Shown in pieces: positions 45,905-55,234 of a stretch of DNA of 64,000 nt; within the stretch, counting starts at the first letter, position 1, and each line of letters begins with the position of its first letter. This DNA is from Actinomycetota bacterium (lineage in GTDB: Bacteria; Actinomycetota; CADDZG01; JAHWKV01; JAOPZY01). The notes under the pieces are model-generated. The model was not told the DNA's origin. It worked only from the letters and a program-made list of their open reading frames with translations, and ran no database searches. The position numbers were made by a program, and so were the translations under genes. The DNA is taken from NCBI GenBank assembly GCA_035765775.1, contig DASTWV010000040.1:1-64000 (forward strand), given 5' to 3'.

Positions 45905-46764
45905 CCGTCGTCTCCGCCCGGGACCTGGCTGCCGCGTACGGCCGCCGCACGGTGTGGGAGGGCGCCACCTTCGACCTCGAGCCCGGCGCCTTTGTCGGGG
46001 TGCTCGGCCCCAATGGGGCCGGCAAATCCACACTGTTCCGCTTGCTGCTCGGCCTGCTGCGCCCGGCGCACGGCTCCCTGACGGTGCTGGGCGAGGTCCC
46101 CCACCGGGGCGATCCCGCCATCGGCTACGTGCCGCAGCGCCGGCCGGTGGACGCCGAGGTCCGCCTCCGGGGCAGCGAGTTCGTCAAGCTGGGCCTTACC
46201 GGGCACCGCTGGGGCATCGGCGGCCCCCGGAGCCGGCGGGAGGCGGCCGCCGAGGTCGCCGGCGCCCTCGCCACCGCCGGGGCCACCGCCTACGGCGACC
46301 GGGCGATGGGGTCGCTGTCGGGCGGCGAGCTGCAGCGCCTGACCCTGGCCCAGGCGATCGCCAGCCACCCGAAGCTGCTGCTGCTCGACGAGCCCTTCTC
46401 CAACCTCGACCTGCGCAACCAGGTGGCCGGGGCGCAGCTGTTCGCCCGCCTCGCCGCCGAGCGCGGGATCGCCGTGCTGCTCATCGCCCACGACGTCAAC
46501 CCGTTGCTGCCGCTGCTCGACCAGGTGATGTACGTCGCCCGGGGCCAGATCACCCTCGGGCCGCCCGACGAGGTGATCACCTCCGCCCGCCTCTCCGCCC
46601 TGTACGAGACCCAGGTCGAAGTCCTGCGGGACAGCCGGGGCCGGCTGTTCGTGGTGGGCCTCGAGGAGGAGGCGTCGCACCCGCATGCCCACGACGACGA
46701 CTGCCACGAGCACGGCGCCGGCCACCCGACGGGCGCTCAGGAAGGGTCGCTGGAGCTGTGCTGA
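45901..46764 (+). CDS. znuC: Zinc ABC transporter ATPase with histidine-rich tail (ZnuC-like)
   Basis: A 287-residue ATPase: Walker A GPNGAGKST (36-44), LSGGELQR (139-146), Walker B LLLLDEP (159-165), IAHD. After the domain comes an unusual tail (about 258-275) with six histidines, a cysteine and several Asp/Glu (SHPHAHDDDCHEHGAGH), which could bind zinc and sense cytoplasmic levels to gate uptake. The GTG start overlaps znuA's stop by 4 bases. Confidence 0.93.
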   Translation: MTVVSARDLAAAYGRRTVWEGATFDLEPGAFVGVLGPNGAGKSTLFRLLLGLLRPAHGSLTVLGEVPHRGDPAIGYVPQRRPVDAEVRLRGSEFVKLGLTGHRWGIGGPRSRREAAAEVAGALATAGATAYGDRAMGSLSGGELQRLTLAQAIASHPKLLLLDEPFSNLDLRNQVAGAQLFARLAAERGIAVLLIAHDVNPLLPLLDQVMYVARGQITLGPPDEVITSARLSALYETQVEVLRDSRGRLFVVGLEEEASHPHAHDDDCHEHGAGHPTGAQEGSLELC

Positions 46765-47645
46765 CCGCCGGGCTCACCGCCGTGGTCTCCCCGCACCCAG
46801 GCTGGAACGTCGTCGCCGACCTCCGGGACCTGCTCAGCTACCCCTTCATGCGCCACGCCTTCGTGGCCGGGACGATCGTGGCGGTGGTAGCCGGCGTGGT
46901 GGGGTACGTGGTCGTGCTGCGCCAGTCGGCGTTCGCCGCCCACGCGCTGTCCGAGATCGGCTTCGCCGGGGCATCGGGGGCGGTGGCCTACGGGCTGAAC
47001 CCGGTCGCCGGCCTGCTGGCGATGAGCCTGGTGGGGGCGGGGGCGATCGGCGTGCTGGGCAAGCGCCTGCGGGGCCGGGACGCGGCCATCGGCATCGTGC
47101 TGGCGTTCTCCGTCGGGCTCGGCTCCTACTTCCTCACCATCTACAAGGGCAACGCCAGCGGGGCCTTCGCCCTGCTGTTCGGGGAGATCCTGGGCATCAG
47201 CGTGGGCGACATCTGGATCATCGCCGTGGCCGGGGCGGTGGTGCTCCTGGCACTGGCCGCGGTGTACCGCCCGCTGCTGTTCGCCTCGCTGGACGAGGAC
47301 GTCGCCGAAGCCCGGGGCGTGCCCGTCCGGGCGCTCTCGGTCATCTTCCTGCTCGTGCTGGCGGTGGCGGTCACCGCGGCCGTGCAGGTGGTGGGGGTGC
47401 TGCTGATCTTCGGGCTCCTGGTCACCCCGGGGGCCATCGCCGAGCGGGTCACCCGGACCCCGGCCGCCGGGATGGCCCTGTGCGTCGGGCTGTCGCTGGC
47501 GTTCATCTGGGCCGGCCTGGCGGTGACCTACTACAGCAGCTTCCCGGTCGGGTTCCTGGTGACCGCCCTGGCGTTCGCCGCCTACCTGGTGGTGCGCATC
47601 GGCGGAGCGCTGCGCTCGAGCCCTATGCTGGTGAGCAGCCCGTGA
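46758..47645 (+). CDS. znuB: Zinc ABC transporter permease (ZnuB-like)
   Basis: A 295-residue ABC-3 family permease with 8-9 membrane helices (VVGYVVVLRQSAFAAHALSE, then helices to LVVRIGG). The cytoplasmic coupling segment FASLDEDVAEARGVPV is diagnostic of the ZnuB/MntB family. GTG 46758 overlaps the ATPase stop by 7 bases; GGAG lies just upstream. Histidines and acidic residues in helix 1-2 and 5 suit a divalent metal pore. Confidence 0.93.
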   Translation: MLTAGLTAVVSPHPGWNVVADLRDLLSYPFMRHAFVAGTIVAVVAGVVGYVVVLRQSAFAAHALSEIGFAGASGAVAYGLNPVAGLLAMSLVGAGAIGVLGKRLRGRDAAIGIVLAFSVGLGSYFLTIYKGNASGAFALLFGEILGISVGDIWIIAVAGAVVLLALAAVYRPLLFASLDEDVAEARGVPVRALSVIFLLVLAVAVTAAVQVVGVLLIFGLLVTPGAIAERVTRTPAAGMALCVGLSLAFIWAGLAVTYYSSFPVGFLVTALAFAAYLVVRIGGALRSSPMLVSSP

Positions 47646-48085
47646 TCCAGCCGCCCCAAGCCCTGCACGACGCCGTGGCCCTCCGCCTGGCCCGCCTGGA
47701 CCAGCGCTACACCCGCCCGCGGCAGGCCCTGGTGGACACCCTCGCCGGGGCCGGACGGCCCCTCACCATCCCGGAGGTCCTGGCCGCCTGCCCCGAGCTC
47801 CCGCAGAGCAGCGCCTACCGCAACATGACCGCGCTGATCGAGGCGGGCATCGTCCGGCGGGTGGCCGGCACCGACGACCACGGCCGCTTCGAGCTGGCCG
47901 AGGAGCTGTCCGGCCACCACCACCACCTGGTGTGCGCCACCTGCGGCAAGGTGGACGACGTCGCCCCCAGCCCCCGCCTGGAGCGGGCGCTGGCCGAGGC
48001 GGCCCGGGCGGCGGCCGAGGAGCAGGGGTACGCGGTTACCGACCACCGCTTCGATCTCGTGGGGGTCTGCCCCGCCTGCCGCTAG
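47642..48085 (+). CDS. zur: Fur-family zinc uptake regulator (Zur)
   Basis: A 147-residue Fur-family repressor: winged helix (15-80) with the PQSSAYRNMTALIEAGIV recognition helix, then the dimer domain starting HHHH (92-95). Structural zinc site C98/C101 and C143/C146. Being last in the zinc transporter operon, with a Zur-like box at the operon's promoter, it should be an autoregulated zinc sensor. GTGA overlap with znuB. Confidence 0.93.
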   Translation: MIQPPQALHDAVALRLARLDQRYTRPRQALVDTLAGAGRPLTIPEVLAACPELPQSSAYRNMTALIEAGIVRRVAGTDDHGRFELAEELSGHHHHLVCATCGKVDDVAPSPRLERALAEAARAAAEEQGYAVTDHRFDLVGVCPACR

Positions 48086-48160: not shown

Positions 48161-49396
48161 CTAGAAGGCGCCCGTCCCGTTCGGCGTGCCGAGCCCGGTC
48201 GGGCCGTCCCAGCCGGCGCCGGCGGTGCACAGGGCGTTGCCGCAGCTGCCGTTGGTCCCGCTGGTGACGTCGTTGAGGTTGGCGGACGTGCCGTGCAGGT
48301 AGGGGTACGAGCTGTTGGTCACCGAGGCGGTGTTGCCCGCCAGGGCGTACACGCCGGCGACGAGCGGCGAAGCCAGGCTCGTCCCGCCCACGAGGATCCA
48401 GCCGCCGTAGCCGTAGGTGTCGTACACCGCCGCCCCGGTGTTTGGGTTGGCATCGGCGGAGACGTCGGCGGTCGCCCGCATGGCGCACACCGCGGTCAGG
48501 GTGCTCACCGCCGCCTGCCAGGTCGGCTGGGATTCGCCCTTGCTGCACCCGCTGCCGCCGCTGTTCCAGGCCGACTCGACCCAGCCCCGGGCGTTGGTCG
48601 ACGTCTGGAGGGTCGTGCCGCCGACCGCAGTGACGTAGGGCGAGGACGACGGGTACTCGATCTGGAAGCCGGTGTCGCCGGTGCTGGCCGTGATGGCCAC
48701 GCCGGGGTGGTTGTAGTACGAGTCATAGGCCGACTCCCCGGCACCGTCGTTGCCGCCGTAGCTGTTGGAGATCGACTTGGCGCCCAGGCTGGCAGCGGTG
48801 TTCTCCGCGTTGCCCAGGTCGGTGAAGGACGCCGAGTAGGCCTCGACGAGGACGAGGCTGCACTTCGGGCACACCGCCGACGCGGCATCCAGGTCGAGCG
48901 ACTCCTCGAGCCCCCAGCCGCTGTTGCCGGACGGGCCCCGCCCGAACCGGGTCATCTTGACCTTCTTGAAGCAGCCGTTGGCCGTCGTGCACGGCGGCAA
49001 GCCTTCCGTCGAGCGGTAGGTGGCCAGGTTGGACTCGGCGTAGGGGTTGTCGTAGGCGTCCACCAGAGCGATCGTGCCGCCGTTGGTGGCCGCCGCCGCC
49101 GTCAGGTTGTACGCCGACTGGAACTGCGTGGGGCCGTAGCCCACGGGGTTGGCGTTGGTCAGCGGCGCTCCGTGGCCATCCACGATGACCCGGGCGGTGC
49201 AACTTGCCTCTCCCGGACCCGGGTCGCTGCACACCCGGGCGCTGGCCAGGCCGGCCAACCCGGGGGGGAGGATCGGGGCGGGGGTCGATGACGGGGGCTG
49301 GGCACCAGCAAACGGGGCGAACAGCAGTGTACCAACCAGCGTAGCTGTTGCCCCGATAACGATCAGGGTGGCCGGCCGGAAGCGATGCGTCTTCAT
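48161..49396 (-). CDS. Secreted sedolisin-family (S53-like) protease
   Basis: A 411-residue exported serine-carboxyl peptidase. Signal peptide to about residue 32. Catalytic E164 and D168 (GLEESLDLD), oxyanion D241 (ASTGDTGF) and nucleophile S340 (VGGTSLASP) all match the sedolisin pattern; the C-terminal NDVTSG and GWDGPTGLGTP form the calcium site. The usual ~170-residue activation pro-domain is absent; only ~55 residues precede the catalytic domain, as in short secreted actinobacterial S53 members. GAAGGAGG lies ~10 bases before the ATG. Probably scavenges peptides outside the cell, at acidic pH if like its family. Confidence 0.9.
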   Translation of the reverse strand: MKTHRFRPATLIVIGATATLVGTLLFAPFAGAQPPSSTPAPILPPGLAGLASARVCSDPGPGEASCTARVIVDGHGAPLTNANPVGYGPTQFQSAYNLTAAAATNGGTIALVDAYDNPYAESNLATYRSTEGLPPCTTANGCFKKVKMTRFGRGPSGNSGWGLEESLDLDAASAVCPKCSLVLVEAYSASFTDLGNAENTAASLGAKSISNSYGGNDGAGESAYDSYYNHPGVAITASTGDTGFQIEYPSSSPYVTAVGGTTLQTSTNARGWVESAWNSGGSGCSKGESQPTWQAAVSTLTAVCAMRATADVSADANPNTGAAVYDTYGYGGWILVGGTSLASPLVAGVYALAGNTASVTNSSYPYLHGTSANLNDVTSGTNGSCGNALCTAGAGWDGPTGLGTPNGTGAF

Positions 49397-49482: not shown

Positions 49483-50400
49483 TTAATTCGGCACGCTCCG
49501 GAGGTCACTTAAGGCCCTTCTTAGATCCTCGGGGAGAGGATCGATCGCCTCGATCCGGATCCCGGTCACCGGGTGTACGAACTCTAGGCGGAGGGCGTGG
49601 AGGAAGGGCCGGTGCAGCCCGAGGGCGCGGGCAAGCCCGGCCGCGGCCCGGCCATAGGTCGTGTCGCCGACGACCGGGTGCTGGATGTGCGCCAGGTGCA
49701 CCCGGATCTGGTGCGTGCGGCCGGTATGCAGGTGGACCTCGAGGAGCGAGGCGGGCGCCGGCCGCTCGAAGCGCTCCGAGACCGTGAACTCGGTCACCGC
49801 TTCCCGGCCCCCAGGCGCCACCGCCATCCTGGTCCGGTCACGCTGCGACCGGCCCACCGGGGCTTCGATGCGCCCGGCCGGCATCCCGAAGACCCCGGCG
49901 ACGAGGGCCTGGTACGTGCGGGCGATCTTGCGGGCCTGCATGGCGGCAACCAGGCCCCGGTAGGCGTCGTCGGTCTTCGCCACCACCAGCAAGCCGGAGG
50001 TGTCCTTGTCGAGGCGGTGCACGATGCCCGGCCGGCTCCCCCCCGCCGCCGGGGCCAGCGCCATGACCCGGGCGAGAGCGTCCACCAGCGTGGGCCCCCG
50101 GGTGCCGGGGGCGGGGTGCACGACGACCCCGGCGGGCTTGGCGACGATGGCCAGGTGGTCGTCCTCGACCACGATCCGGTACTCGGCGTCGGGTCCCTCG
50201 ACGGTGCGCTCAGGCAGCGCCTCAGCCTCGATCACCTCACCGGCCACCAGGCGGTGGGACTTCGCCGCCGGGCCCCCTTCCCGCGTCACCCTGCCCGCCT
50301 CGACCATGTCCTGCACCTCCCTGCGGGACCACCCGCCGGCACCGGCCAGCCAGGCGTCCAGGCGGGCTCCGGCGGCATCGTCGGGCACCACGAAGCGCAC
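49483..50400 (-). CDS. rluD: RluD-type 23S rRNA pseudouridine synthase
   Basis: A 305-residue enzyme with an N-terminal S4 RNA-binding domain (1-70) and a RluA-family catalytic domain; the catalytic aspartate is in GIVHRLDKDTSGLLV, followed by ARTYQALV and the HTGRTHQIRVHLA block. Probably modifies the 23S rRNA helix 69 loop. It starts 4 bases after the lspA stop, a pairing (lspA-rluD) common across bacteria. Confidence 0.93.
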   Translation of the reverse strand: MRFVVPDDAAGARLDAWLAGAGGWSRREVQDMVEAGRVTREGGPAAKSHRLVAGEVIEAEALPERTVEGPDAEYRIVVEDDHLAIVAKPAGVVVHPAPGTRGPTLVDALARVMALAPAAGGSRPGIVHRLDKDTSGLLVVAKTDDAYRGLVAAMQARKIARTYQALVAGVFGMPAGRIEAPVGRSQRDRTRMAVAPGGREAVTEFTVSERFERPAPASLLEVHLHTGRTHQIRVHLAHIQHPVVGDTTYGRAAAGLARALGLHRPFLHALRLEFVHPVTGIRIEAIDPLPEDLRRALSDLRSVPN

Positions 50401-50404
50401 GGCC

Positions 50405-50881
50405 CTACCGCCGCCGGAGCTCGAGGAGCAGCAGCAAGCCGACCCCCACCACGATGGAGCTGTCGGCCAGGTTGAACGTGGGCCAGTAGCGGAAGTGAAT
50501 GAAGTCCACCACCCGGCCCTGCAGGTGCCCGGGGGCCCGGACCACCCGGTCGATGAGGTTGCCGAGCCCCCCGCCGGCCACCAGCCCCAGCGGGACCGGC
50601 GCCTGGGAACTGCGCAGCCCGAGGACCAGGACCGCCCCGACGATCAGCGCGGTGAGGGCCAGGAACAGCACCGGCGAGTTCGGGAACAAGCCGAAGGCAC
50701 CGCCCGGGTTGCGGGTGAGCTGGAGGTCCAGGAGGGTGCCGAGGATGCGCATCGGGCGCCCGGAGGCCAGGAGGCGAACGGCAAGCGCCTTGCTTATCTG
50801 GTCATAGGCCACCGTGAGGGCGACCATGCCAGCCAGCAGCGCTCTTGGGCGGGCTACCGGCGCTCCTCGGCCTTCTTGCAC
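50405..50881 (-). CDS. lspA: Lipoprotein signal peptidase
   Basis: Signal peptidase II cuts prolipoproteins before the lipidated cysteine. Four membrane helices are seen, with DQISK in helix 1, LTRNPGGAFGLF, the first catalytic aspartate in GGGLGNLIDRV and the second in NLADSSI. The GTG at 50881 gives 158 residues, the normal length with a basic N-terminus, but overlaps the TraR/DksA gene by 28 bases; ATG 50827 gives 140 residues with a clipped first helix. I prefer the longer form. At least two lipoprotein substrates (2040 and 44957) are in this window. Confidence 0.88.
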   Translation of the reverse strand: MQEGRGAPVARPRALLAGMVALTVAYDQISKALAVRLLASGRPMRILGTLLDLQLTRNPGGAFGLFPNSPVLFLALTALIVGAVLVLGLRSSQAPVPLGLVAGGGLGNLIDRVVRAPGHLQGRVVDFIHFRYWPTFNLADSSIVVGVGLLLLLELRRR

Positions 50882-51642
50882 TTCAGGCACAGCGTGACAT
50901 GGGGCAGCGCTTTCAGCCGGGGGCCCTCGATGGGCTTGCCGCACGACTCGCAGATGCCGTACGTGCCGTCGTCGATCTTGTGGAGGGCACGGTCGATCTT
51001 CGAGCGCAGGTCGGAGACATTGTTGGCGATCGACAGATCCTTCTCCCGCTCGAAGGTGAACGACCCGGAGTCGGCGAAGTCCTCGTCGTAGCTCACCTCG
51101 CCCGAGATCTCGGACTGCGAGGAGTTGAACGTGACCTCCTCGATCTCGGTCAGCTGGCGCTGGAGTTCTTCGCGCTGCTGGACCAGGGCCCCCCGGATCC
51201 CGGCCAGCGTCTCGGCGTCGAACGCCGTGCGGGCGACGGGGACGGAGGCGGCCGCAGCCGGCTTGGGGGCCGCAGGCGTCGCCTTGGCGGTGGGCTTGGG
51301 CGAGGCTTGTGCGGCCGCGGGCTTGGGAGCCGGCTTGGCCGCAGCGGGCTTGGGGGTGGGTTTGGAAACCGGCTTGGCCGCCGCGGCCTTCGCCGTTGCC
51401 TTGGGAGCGGCCTTGGCGGCGGGCTTGGCGGGCTGATTCACGGCGGCAGGCTTCGCAGCCGCCTTGGCCGCCGGTTTGGGAGCAGGCTTCGCAGCCGCCT
51501 TGGCCGCCGGTTTCCGGGCCGGCTTTGCTGCCCCCTTGGCCGCCGGTTTCGGGGCCGGTTTGGCGGCGGCGGGCGCGGCCTTCCGGGGAGCGACCTTCGG
51601 CTCCCCGTCCGGCAGTTCGGGCTTGCTGACTTTGCTTGGCAT
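50854..51642 (-). CDS. TraR/DksA-family zinc finger with histone H1-like tail
   Basis: A 262-residue protein with two parts. Residues 1-135 are low complexity, dozens of Lys-Pro-Ala/Ala-Lys repeats like a histone H1 C-terminus or mycobacterial HupB tail. Residues 140-262 are a TraR/DksA domain: coiled coil (ALVQQREELQRQLTEIEE, EREKDL) and C4 zinc finger C231/C234/C252/C255. DksA-type proteins enter the RNA polymerase secondary channel; here the basic tail could bind DNA or acidic partners. In contrast with E. coli DksA there is no DxxDxA tip visible. It precedes lspA on the same strand. Confidence 0.85.
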   Translation of the reverse strand: MPSKVSKPELPDGEPKVAPRKAAPAAAKPAPKPAAKGAAKPARKPAAKAAAKPAPKPAAKAAAKPAAVNQPAKPAAKAAPKATAKAAAAKPVSKPTPKPAAAKPAPKPAAAQASPKPTAKATPAAPKPAAAASVPVARTAFDAETLAGIRGALVQQREELQRQLTEIEEVTFNSSQSEISGEVSYDEDFADSGSFTFEREKDLSIANNVSDLRSKIDRALHKIDDGTYGICESCGKPIEGPRLKALPHVTLCLKCKKAEERR

Positions 51643-51694: not shown

Positions 51695-51728
51695 AGGATG
51701 CGGGGGGAAAATTCGGCGAACCATACCA

Positions 51729-52055
51729 CTATGGCTGCGGCCAGTCAAGACCGGAGTCAACGCTGGCGCCGAGGGCGGCGGCGGCCTCCTCCGGGCTCCG
51801 TCCGAGCACGTGCACCCGCTTGTTGCGGCTCTGCGAACCGGACAGCAGCGTGGCCGACGACCGGGGGACGCCCAGCCGCTCGGCCAGAAGCTCGAGGAGG
51901 GCGTCGTTGGCCTTGCCGCCCTCGGGCGGCGCCTTCACCTTCACCTTGACCGCGCCGGCGTGCATCCCGATGACGGCGGTCCGCACCGCGCCGGGCTGGC
52001 AGAACACGGCCACCACGACGCCGTCCGCGACTGCCTGGAAAGGGGAAGCCCGCAC
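51729..52055 (-). CDS. DUF167/YggU family protein
   Basis: A 108-residue conserved protein of unknown function: MHAGAVKVKVKAPPEGGKAN, the helix ALLELLAERLGVP and the SRNKRVHV strand are the family's signature. GTG start, 23 bases from the divergent ileS. Confidence 0.9.
   Translation of the reverse strand: MRASPFQAVADGVVVAVFCQPGAVRTAVIGMHAGAVKVKVKAPPEGGKANDALLELLAERLGVPRSSATLLSGSQSRNKRVHVLGRSPEEAAAALGASVDSGLDWPQP

Positions 52056-52078: not shown

Positions 52079-55234
<3,156 letters not shown>

Follow-up and report, generated by a model that had tools for sequence, protein, structure and literature searches.

The closest described system is DdbA of Streptomyces, the gene for which we take to be SCO2075. 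Excerpts of PMC9043899, which cites Aldridge et al. 2013, describe DdbA as an N-terminal DNA-binding, histone H1-like domain joined to a C-terminal DksA part; passages in PMC11942623 equate the protein with SCO2075 and state that compaction and the stress resistance of spores are affected when ddbA is deleted, and a passage in PMC11229371 lists DdbA among the enhancers of compaction in spores. The gene number, given by one secondary source, is not fully secure: PMC9739823 cites the same 2013 paper in discussing another DksA-like protein, SCO6164. The DdbA of Chlamydia is described as small, basic and controlled by an sRNA, and is apparently just a namesake; the literature searched held no tailed DksA other than DdbA.

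The window, by which we mean the whole analysed stretch of 64,000 nucleotides from an Actinomycetota bacterium, encodes a relative of this known design in an uncultured lineage, and the idea itself is not new. The protein has a basic, H1-like N-terminal part and a C-terminal DksA part, as DdbA does, and its gene occupies the same place as loci of genus g39, which is probably Streptomyces, to judge from its genomes of 5.5-11.3 Mb and from gene place; the comparison by place and tree was made with these loci and not with SCO2075 itself. We regard the gene as probably the positional and architectural counterpart of DdbA, with a basic tail that would act on DNA and a DksA-type half that would act on RNA polymerase. 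The reading frame, which opens with ATG, runs exactly where the first-pass annotation had placed it (Table 1), and the tail of about 135 KPA-type residues described there ahead of a C4 zinc-finger DksA domain is present: Lys, Ala and Pro make up 110 of residues 1-137 (80%), and the Pfam family PF01258 (zf-dskA_traR) matches residues 226-261 (E 7e-13; 48.7 bits against a cut-off of 24.9). Because DdbA was already known in Streptomyces, the hypothesis of that annotation had been published before, and it is met here once more in a distant relative. New here are the reach of the tail into uncultured actinobacterial branches, its coming and going, its variation in length within one genus, and the similar tail on the HU protein that this genome encodes.

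Table 1. Coordinates of the tailed gene, its parts and its neighbours in the window
Feature	Position	Strand	Basis
Tailed TraR/DksA-family protein (DdbA-like) CDS, 262 aa	50854..51642	-	Open reading frame, PF01258, composition
N-terminal tail rich in Lys, Ala and Pro, residues 1-137 (predicted to be disordered)	51232..51642	-	Composition, shuffles, model coil with pLDDT 50-68
Two-helix coiled coil, residues 143-225 (predicted)	50968..51216	-	Predicted helices 143-180 and 189-225; Foldseek DksA matches
Coiled-coil tip, residues 186-193 (predicted)	51064..51087	-	Profile alignment with 1tjl
C4 zinc finger, residues 226-261 (C231, C234, C252, C255)	50860..50967	-	PF01258
Promoter-like site TTGACT-17-TATGGT, TG before the second hexamer	51720..51748	-	Consensus match only
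lspA, next gene downstream, 26 bases past the stop	50405..50827	-	TIGR00077 over cut-off; PF01252 on a longer frame
RluA-family pseudouridine synthase (RluD-like)	49483..50400	-	TIGR00005 over cut-off; PF00849, PF01479
DUF167/YggU gene, upstream	51729..52055	-	PF02594
ileS, divergent upstream neighbour	52079..55234	+	TIGR00392 over cut-off

In the tail itself we counted 53 Ala, 31 Pro, 26 Lys, 2 Arg and 3 acidic residues, with Phe, Trp, Tyr and His absent; the acidic residues all fall before residue 15, leaving none across residues 15-137, and the net charge is +25 against -6 for the rest of the protein. Shuffling the nucleotides of the tail's 411 bases 5000 times gave at most 66 Lys, Ala and Pro residues and never 110, and a six-frame scan of the window found 88 such residues, with 22 Lys, in its best 100-residue stretch, the next best elsewhere holding 51 and 10. 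Imperfect repeats run through the DNA of the tail, the clearest being a 36-bp unit present 3.1 times at 51445-51555 with 88% matches. Five PF01258 matches were found in the genome (95.8% complete), and no comparable tail was seen in the open reading frame listings for the other four proteins. A tail-only protein search of the genome, in which 150 of 676 candidates were scored, returned the query alone and missed the tail of the HU protein described below, and is therefore uninformative about the number of such tails in the genome.

Residues 143-261 form a predicted coiled coil and C4 zinc finger that match DksA structures. The AlphaFold2 model, which was built on 39 aligned sequences, has the two helices listed in Table 1, then the zinc-finger region and one last helix, with the tail as coil; pLDDT is 92-97 in the blocks of the domain, except for residues 171-200 around the tip (60-79), and is at least 90 at 87 of the 262 residues. 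The top Foldseek matches were the DksA structures 4ijj (E 3e-7) and 1tjl and the DksA-RNA polymerase complexes 7khi and 5vsw, the DksA matches having 26-30% identity and TM-scores of 0.62-0.70 by target length, and sequence profiles matched 6ptg, 1tjl and 4ijj. In the profile alignment D188, D191 and G193 fall on tip positions of 1tjl, which we take to be D71, D74 and A76 of E. coli DksA, and the acidic pair is kept; across the 39 aligned sequences G193 is invariant and A190 is at least 90% conserved. The four zinc cysteines are all present, and prediction and alignment together point to a coiled coil with an acidic tip and a DksA fold. Some relatives (L018, L054, L058, L060 and L107) have another residue at the fourth cysteine of the zinc finger, with LCIKDAQAQ where LCLKCKK stands otherwise, and L018 has lost the third as well; the pattern resembles that of DksA2-type proteins, whose zinc fingers are degenerate.

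The gene order in the window is ileS, divergent, and then the DUF167 gene, the tailed gene, lspA and the RluA-family synthase gene on one strand, with the tailed gene and lspA forming a probable operon. Domain matches, paralogues included, were found in 37 of 41 genomes (the window's own and 40 relatives) and in 271 of the 396 genomes of a phylum-wide draw at 90% completeness or more. The gene place was analysed in 117 loci (the window, L050-L124, L156 and L158-L197, ten duplicates among them), a sample chosen from best hits and hence not random, and in 111 of these, window included, lspA lay downstream on the same strand; ileS was upstream of the lspA-linked loci in divergent (66/111) or co-oriented (26/111) position, and an rluD match followed in 101. 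All seven g39 loci of the set were linked to lspA. The nearest named relatives are uncultured Actinomycetota, such as isolate RYN_267 (75% identity); a contig scan with one peptide pattern returned 55 loci, none of them titled Streptomyces, and could hardly have found that genus, because the g39 sequences are without the pattern. Two further reading frames were observed nearby. One, of 411 residues at 48161-49396 (minus strand), has an apparent signal peptide and by eye the look of a sedolisin-type (S53) protease, with no match in Pfam and NCBIfam searches; the other, a FUR-family regulator at 47702-48052 (plus strand), is the end of a 466-residue frame at 46685-48085 (PF01475, residues 340-456), in which the true start of the regulator is probably internal.

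The first-pass annotation had proposed comparing the tail across Actinomycetota, and we did so with a rule that scores a locus as tailed when at least 6 Lys fall within 40 residues, short-tailed loci such as L116, L117 and L118, with 3-4 Lys, thereby counting as untailed. Tails were found in 33 of the 111 lspA-linked loci (window included) and in 29 of the 98 left for the tree after removal of ten duplicates, L067 (contig end), L095 (broken frame) and L185 (domain piece of fewer than 75 residues). The other 69 rows are untailed, so the domain manages without a tail in many lineages. On the 98-row tree, which is built from few columns and weakly supported at many forks, the tail changed at least 9 times (bootstrap 8-10), with 5 changes forced by well-supported branches, against 25.3 in shuffles, and we therefore consider the tail inherited and not scattered. 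Close to the window, family-mate L050 and order-mate L051 are tailed and order-mates L069, L086 and L092 are untailed; farther off, the lspA-linked gene of Nonomuraea gerenzanensis (11.85-Mb record) is tailless by the Lys rule, and thus the tail is not universal in Actinomycetes. That record, classed as a plasmid, was the best hit of a plasmid search that yielded no named Streptomyces locus. Composition drifts from Lys/Pro/Ala in the window to more Thr/Ser in many class-mates and AKKAAP-like repeats in L119 and L120. In each of the 29 tailed rows, the window among them, Lys accounts for 12-34% of the basic stretch although the shares of Pro, Ala and Thr/Ser vary widely, so that charge is preserved and sequence is not.

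Within genus g39, where G418 (one of 41 genomes) gave a weak match only, domain identity to the query is 78-100% across 30 loci, and the N-terminal extension measures 127-362 residues in the 27 of these loci whose start was recognised by motif, the other three being without a recognised start. This range agrees with the first-pass idea that tail length changes through repeats; the variation itself is established across species of the genus, and slippage is a plausible cause of it. At one locus, recorded as both L027 and L095, the frame is broken between the Lys-rich tail and the DksA domain, by either an assembly error or a real shift.

The genome has a single PF00216 (HU) match (L155; G000:C24:79750-80016, plus strand), and this protein too has a Lys-rich tail, ending in 98 C-terminal residues of Lys/Ala/Pro type, 27 of them Lys, of similar make-up to the DksA tail. 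According to the HupS paper (PMC11229371), Lys-rich domains are found chiefly in DNA-binding proteins, and DNA binding by HupS was about 2-fold lower when the protein was acetylated. Over 39 tree rows, DksA and HU tails were both present in 13, the DksA tail alone in 8, the HU tail alone in 3 and neither in 15 (Fisher p 0.008), a coincidence above expectation when kinship is left uncorrected; no association is claimed, because the tree holds only 3 independent pairs and the test on them is not significant. Excluded from the comparison were the genomes that lack a PF00216 match (7 of 30 in one set and 5 of 30 in another), G108 and G037 (where the domain match is untailed, HU has no Lys tail and the locus is outside the tree rows), six genomes with no lspA-linked locus in hand (G336, G059, G069, G089, G212 and G236), and G163 and G438, each of which has a second HU. 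A tailed HU is present in four of the six (G336, G059, G069 and G089), and this speaks against a strict link; the last three of these are without a domain match in the phylum-wide draw. Eight class-mates of family f3 have a DksA tail and no HU tail, and two f54 genomes and G345 have short DksA tails and a tailed HU. No PF00216 match was found in G002, G003 and G005, genomes of the same order (genus g3) that are 94-97% complete and carry a tailless DksA-like gene.

Two alternatives concern the limits and the identity of the protein. Were translation to begin downstream of the tail, the tail would never be made; we hold this to be very improbable. In-frame ATG, GTG or TTG codons occur in the frame at residues 1, 68 (GTG) and 183 (GTG) only. 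The codon at 68 is a possible start for a half-tailed protein, in which half of the tail would still be kept, whereas a start at 183, between two predicted helices, would leave out the coiled coil's first helix; since no such codon stands between them, initiation without the tail is unlikely. The rare start CTG is found at residues 10, 146, 153, 164 and later, those at 146, 153 and 164 being the candidates. Against late initiation stand also the promoter-like site 78-106 bases upstream of the ATG (one in the region, shuffle mean 0.0) and the Lys-rich tail carried in frame by 28 deduplicated relatives; the in-frame upstream stop and the ATG are six codons apart. As to identity, NCBIfam scores fall below cut-off for all seven families matched, among them the best, YteA TIGR02890 (98.8 bits; cut-off 134.4), and the DksA equivalogs NF033459 (DksA_like, the second best; 66.1 against 105) and TIGR02420 (56.4 against 115.5), and for this reason the protein is, judged by sequence, a DksA/TraR superfamily member and not a DksA equivalog. 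The domain might belong to a YteA-type branch that does not share the action of DksA on RNA polymerase. The rank of YteA and the invariant Gly at the position of DksA A76 would suit this, the kept acidic pair and the DksA-like predicted fold would not, and NCBIfam does not decide between the two because every match is below cut-off; we give a YteA-type role a slim chance.

Other alternatives accept the tail and dispute its function. It may be a tolerated low-complexity expansion of Ala, Pro and Lys codons in a high-GC genome, with only the DksA-like domain mattering, and the repeated DNA units, the range of 127-362 residues inside g39, the 69 of 98 rows without a tail and the tailless order-mates inside the tailed group (L069, L086 and L092) speak for such an expansion. 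We nevertheless think it unlikely, given the 123 positions without an acidic residue, the Lys share held at 12-34% while other shares differ, the similar tail on HU, and the 9 tail changes on the tree against 25.3 in shuffles. Binding to a non-chromosomal polyanion (RNA, ribosomes or polyphosphate), or the formation of condensates, is in our judgement quite unlikely: composition by itself cannot tell polyanions apart, and two neighbours, the RluA-family gene and ileS, have products that act on RNA, though linkage to lspA is more constant, but the N-terminal part of DdbA is called DNA-binding in PMC9043899, a secondary source, and a parallel HU tail exists in the same genome.

If the gene is the counterpart of DdbA, as we prefer, its C-terminal DksA-type coiled coil and C4 zinc finger would enter the RNA polymerase secondary channel and alter initiation, probably jointly with (p)ppGpp, a plausible partner because the same genome encodes a RelA_SpoT protein. 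The basic, H1-like tail of 137 residues, predicted to be disordered, would hold DNA or another polyanion without sequence preference, and would keep the protein on the nucleoid and aid compaction. Two observations count against this reading: many lineages go without the tail, and the domain scores below the DksA equivalog cut-offs. The coupling of nucleoid state to transcription put forward in the first-pass annotation fits the two-part architecture and what papers citing the DdbA work say. The reading frame, its composition, its fold prediction, its place beside lspA and the presence and recurrence of the tail in relatives are established directly; binding of DNA and of RNA polymerase by the window protein, and the coupling, are suggested by homology and composition. 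We suggest tentatively, and with more doubt than confidence, that the tailed DksA is an old actinobacterial device and not a speciality of Streptomyces sporulation, one that existed before the window's order, its class-mates and the probable-Streptomyces group diverged, has been lost repeatedly, and with the HU tail couples compaction to transcription in uncultured lineages. If such coupling is real outside Streptomyces, compaction of the chromosome and RNA polymerase would be linked by one protein in much of Actinomycetota, and orthologues with and without the tail, paired by nature at the same gene place, offer a ready comparison for tail function. Specialists in Streptomyces nucleoid proteins will find the result ordinary, with some use as a map of the tail outside that genus.

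Among known systems, CarD of Myxococcus is alike in principle, with an RNA polymerase-binding part and a basic DNA-binding part. CarD joins an RNA polymerase-binding domain to an HMGA/H1-like DNA-binding domain, and its polymerase-binding fold, CarD_CdnL, is unrelated to that of DksA. HU proteins of the HupB/HupS type, one of which is encoded in the same genome, share a Lys-rich tail of similar composition and differ in having HU as the folded part and the tail at the C terminus. With E. coli DksA the window protein shares the coiled coil, the C4 zinc finger, the acidic tip pair and the predicted fold; it differs in falling below the DksA equivalog cut-offs, and E. coli DksA is not known to have such a basic tail. 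The probable Streptomyces loci of g39 have the same arrangement, a tailed gene before lspA and rluD with ileS upstream, and C-terminal domains about 35-44% identical to that of the window. Their N-terminal extensions differ in closing with a linker of the AVRPGEDPW type and in their acidic residues, 6-33 per extension over the 27 loci whose start was recognised; the tail of the window protein is of purer Lys/Ala/Pro. Closest in design is DdbA of Streptomyces coelicolor, in which, as in the window protein, an N-terminal H1-like part is fused to a C-terminal DksA part.
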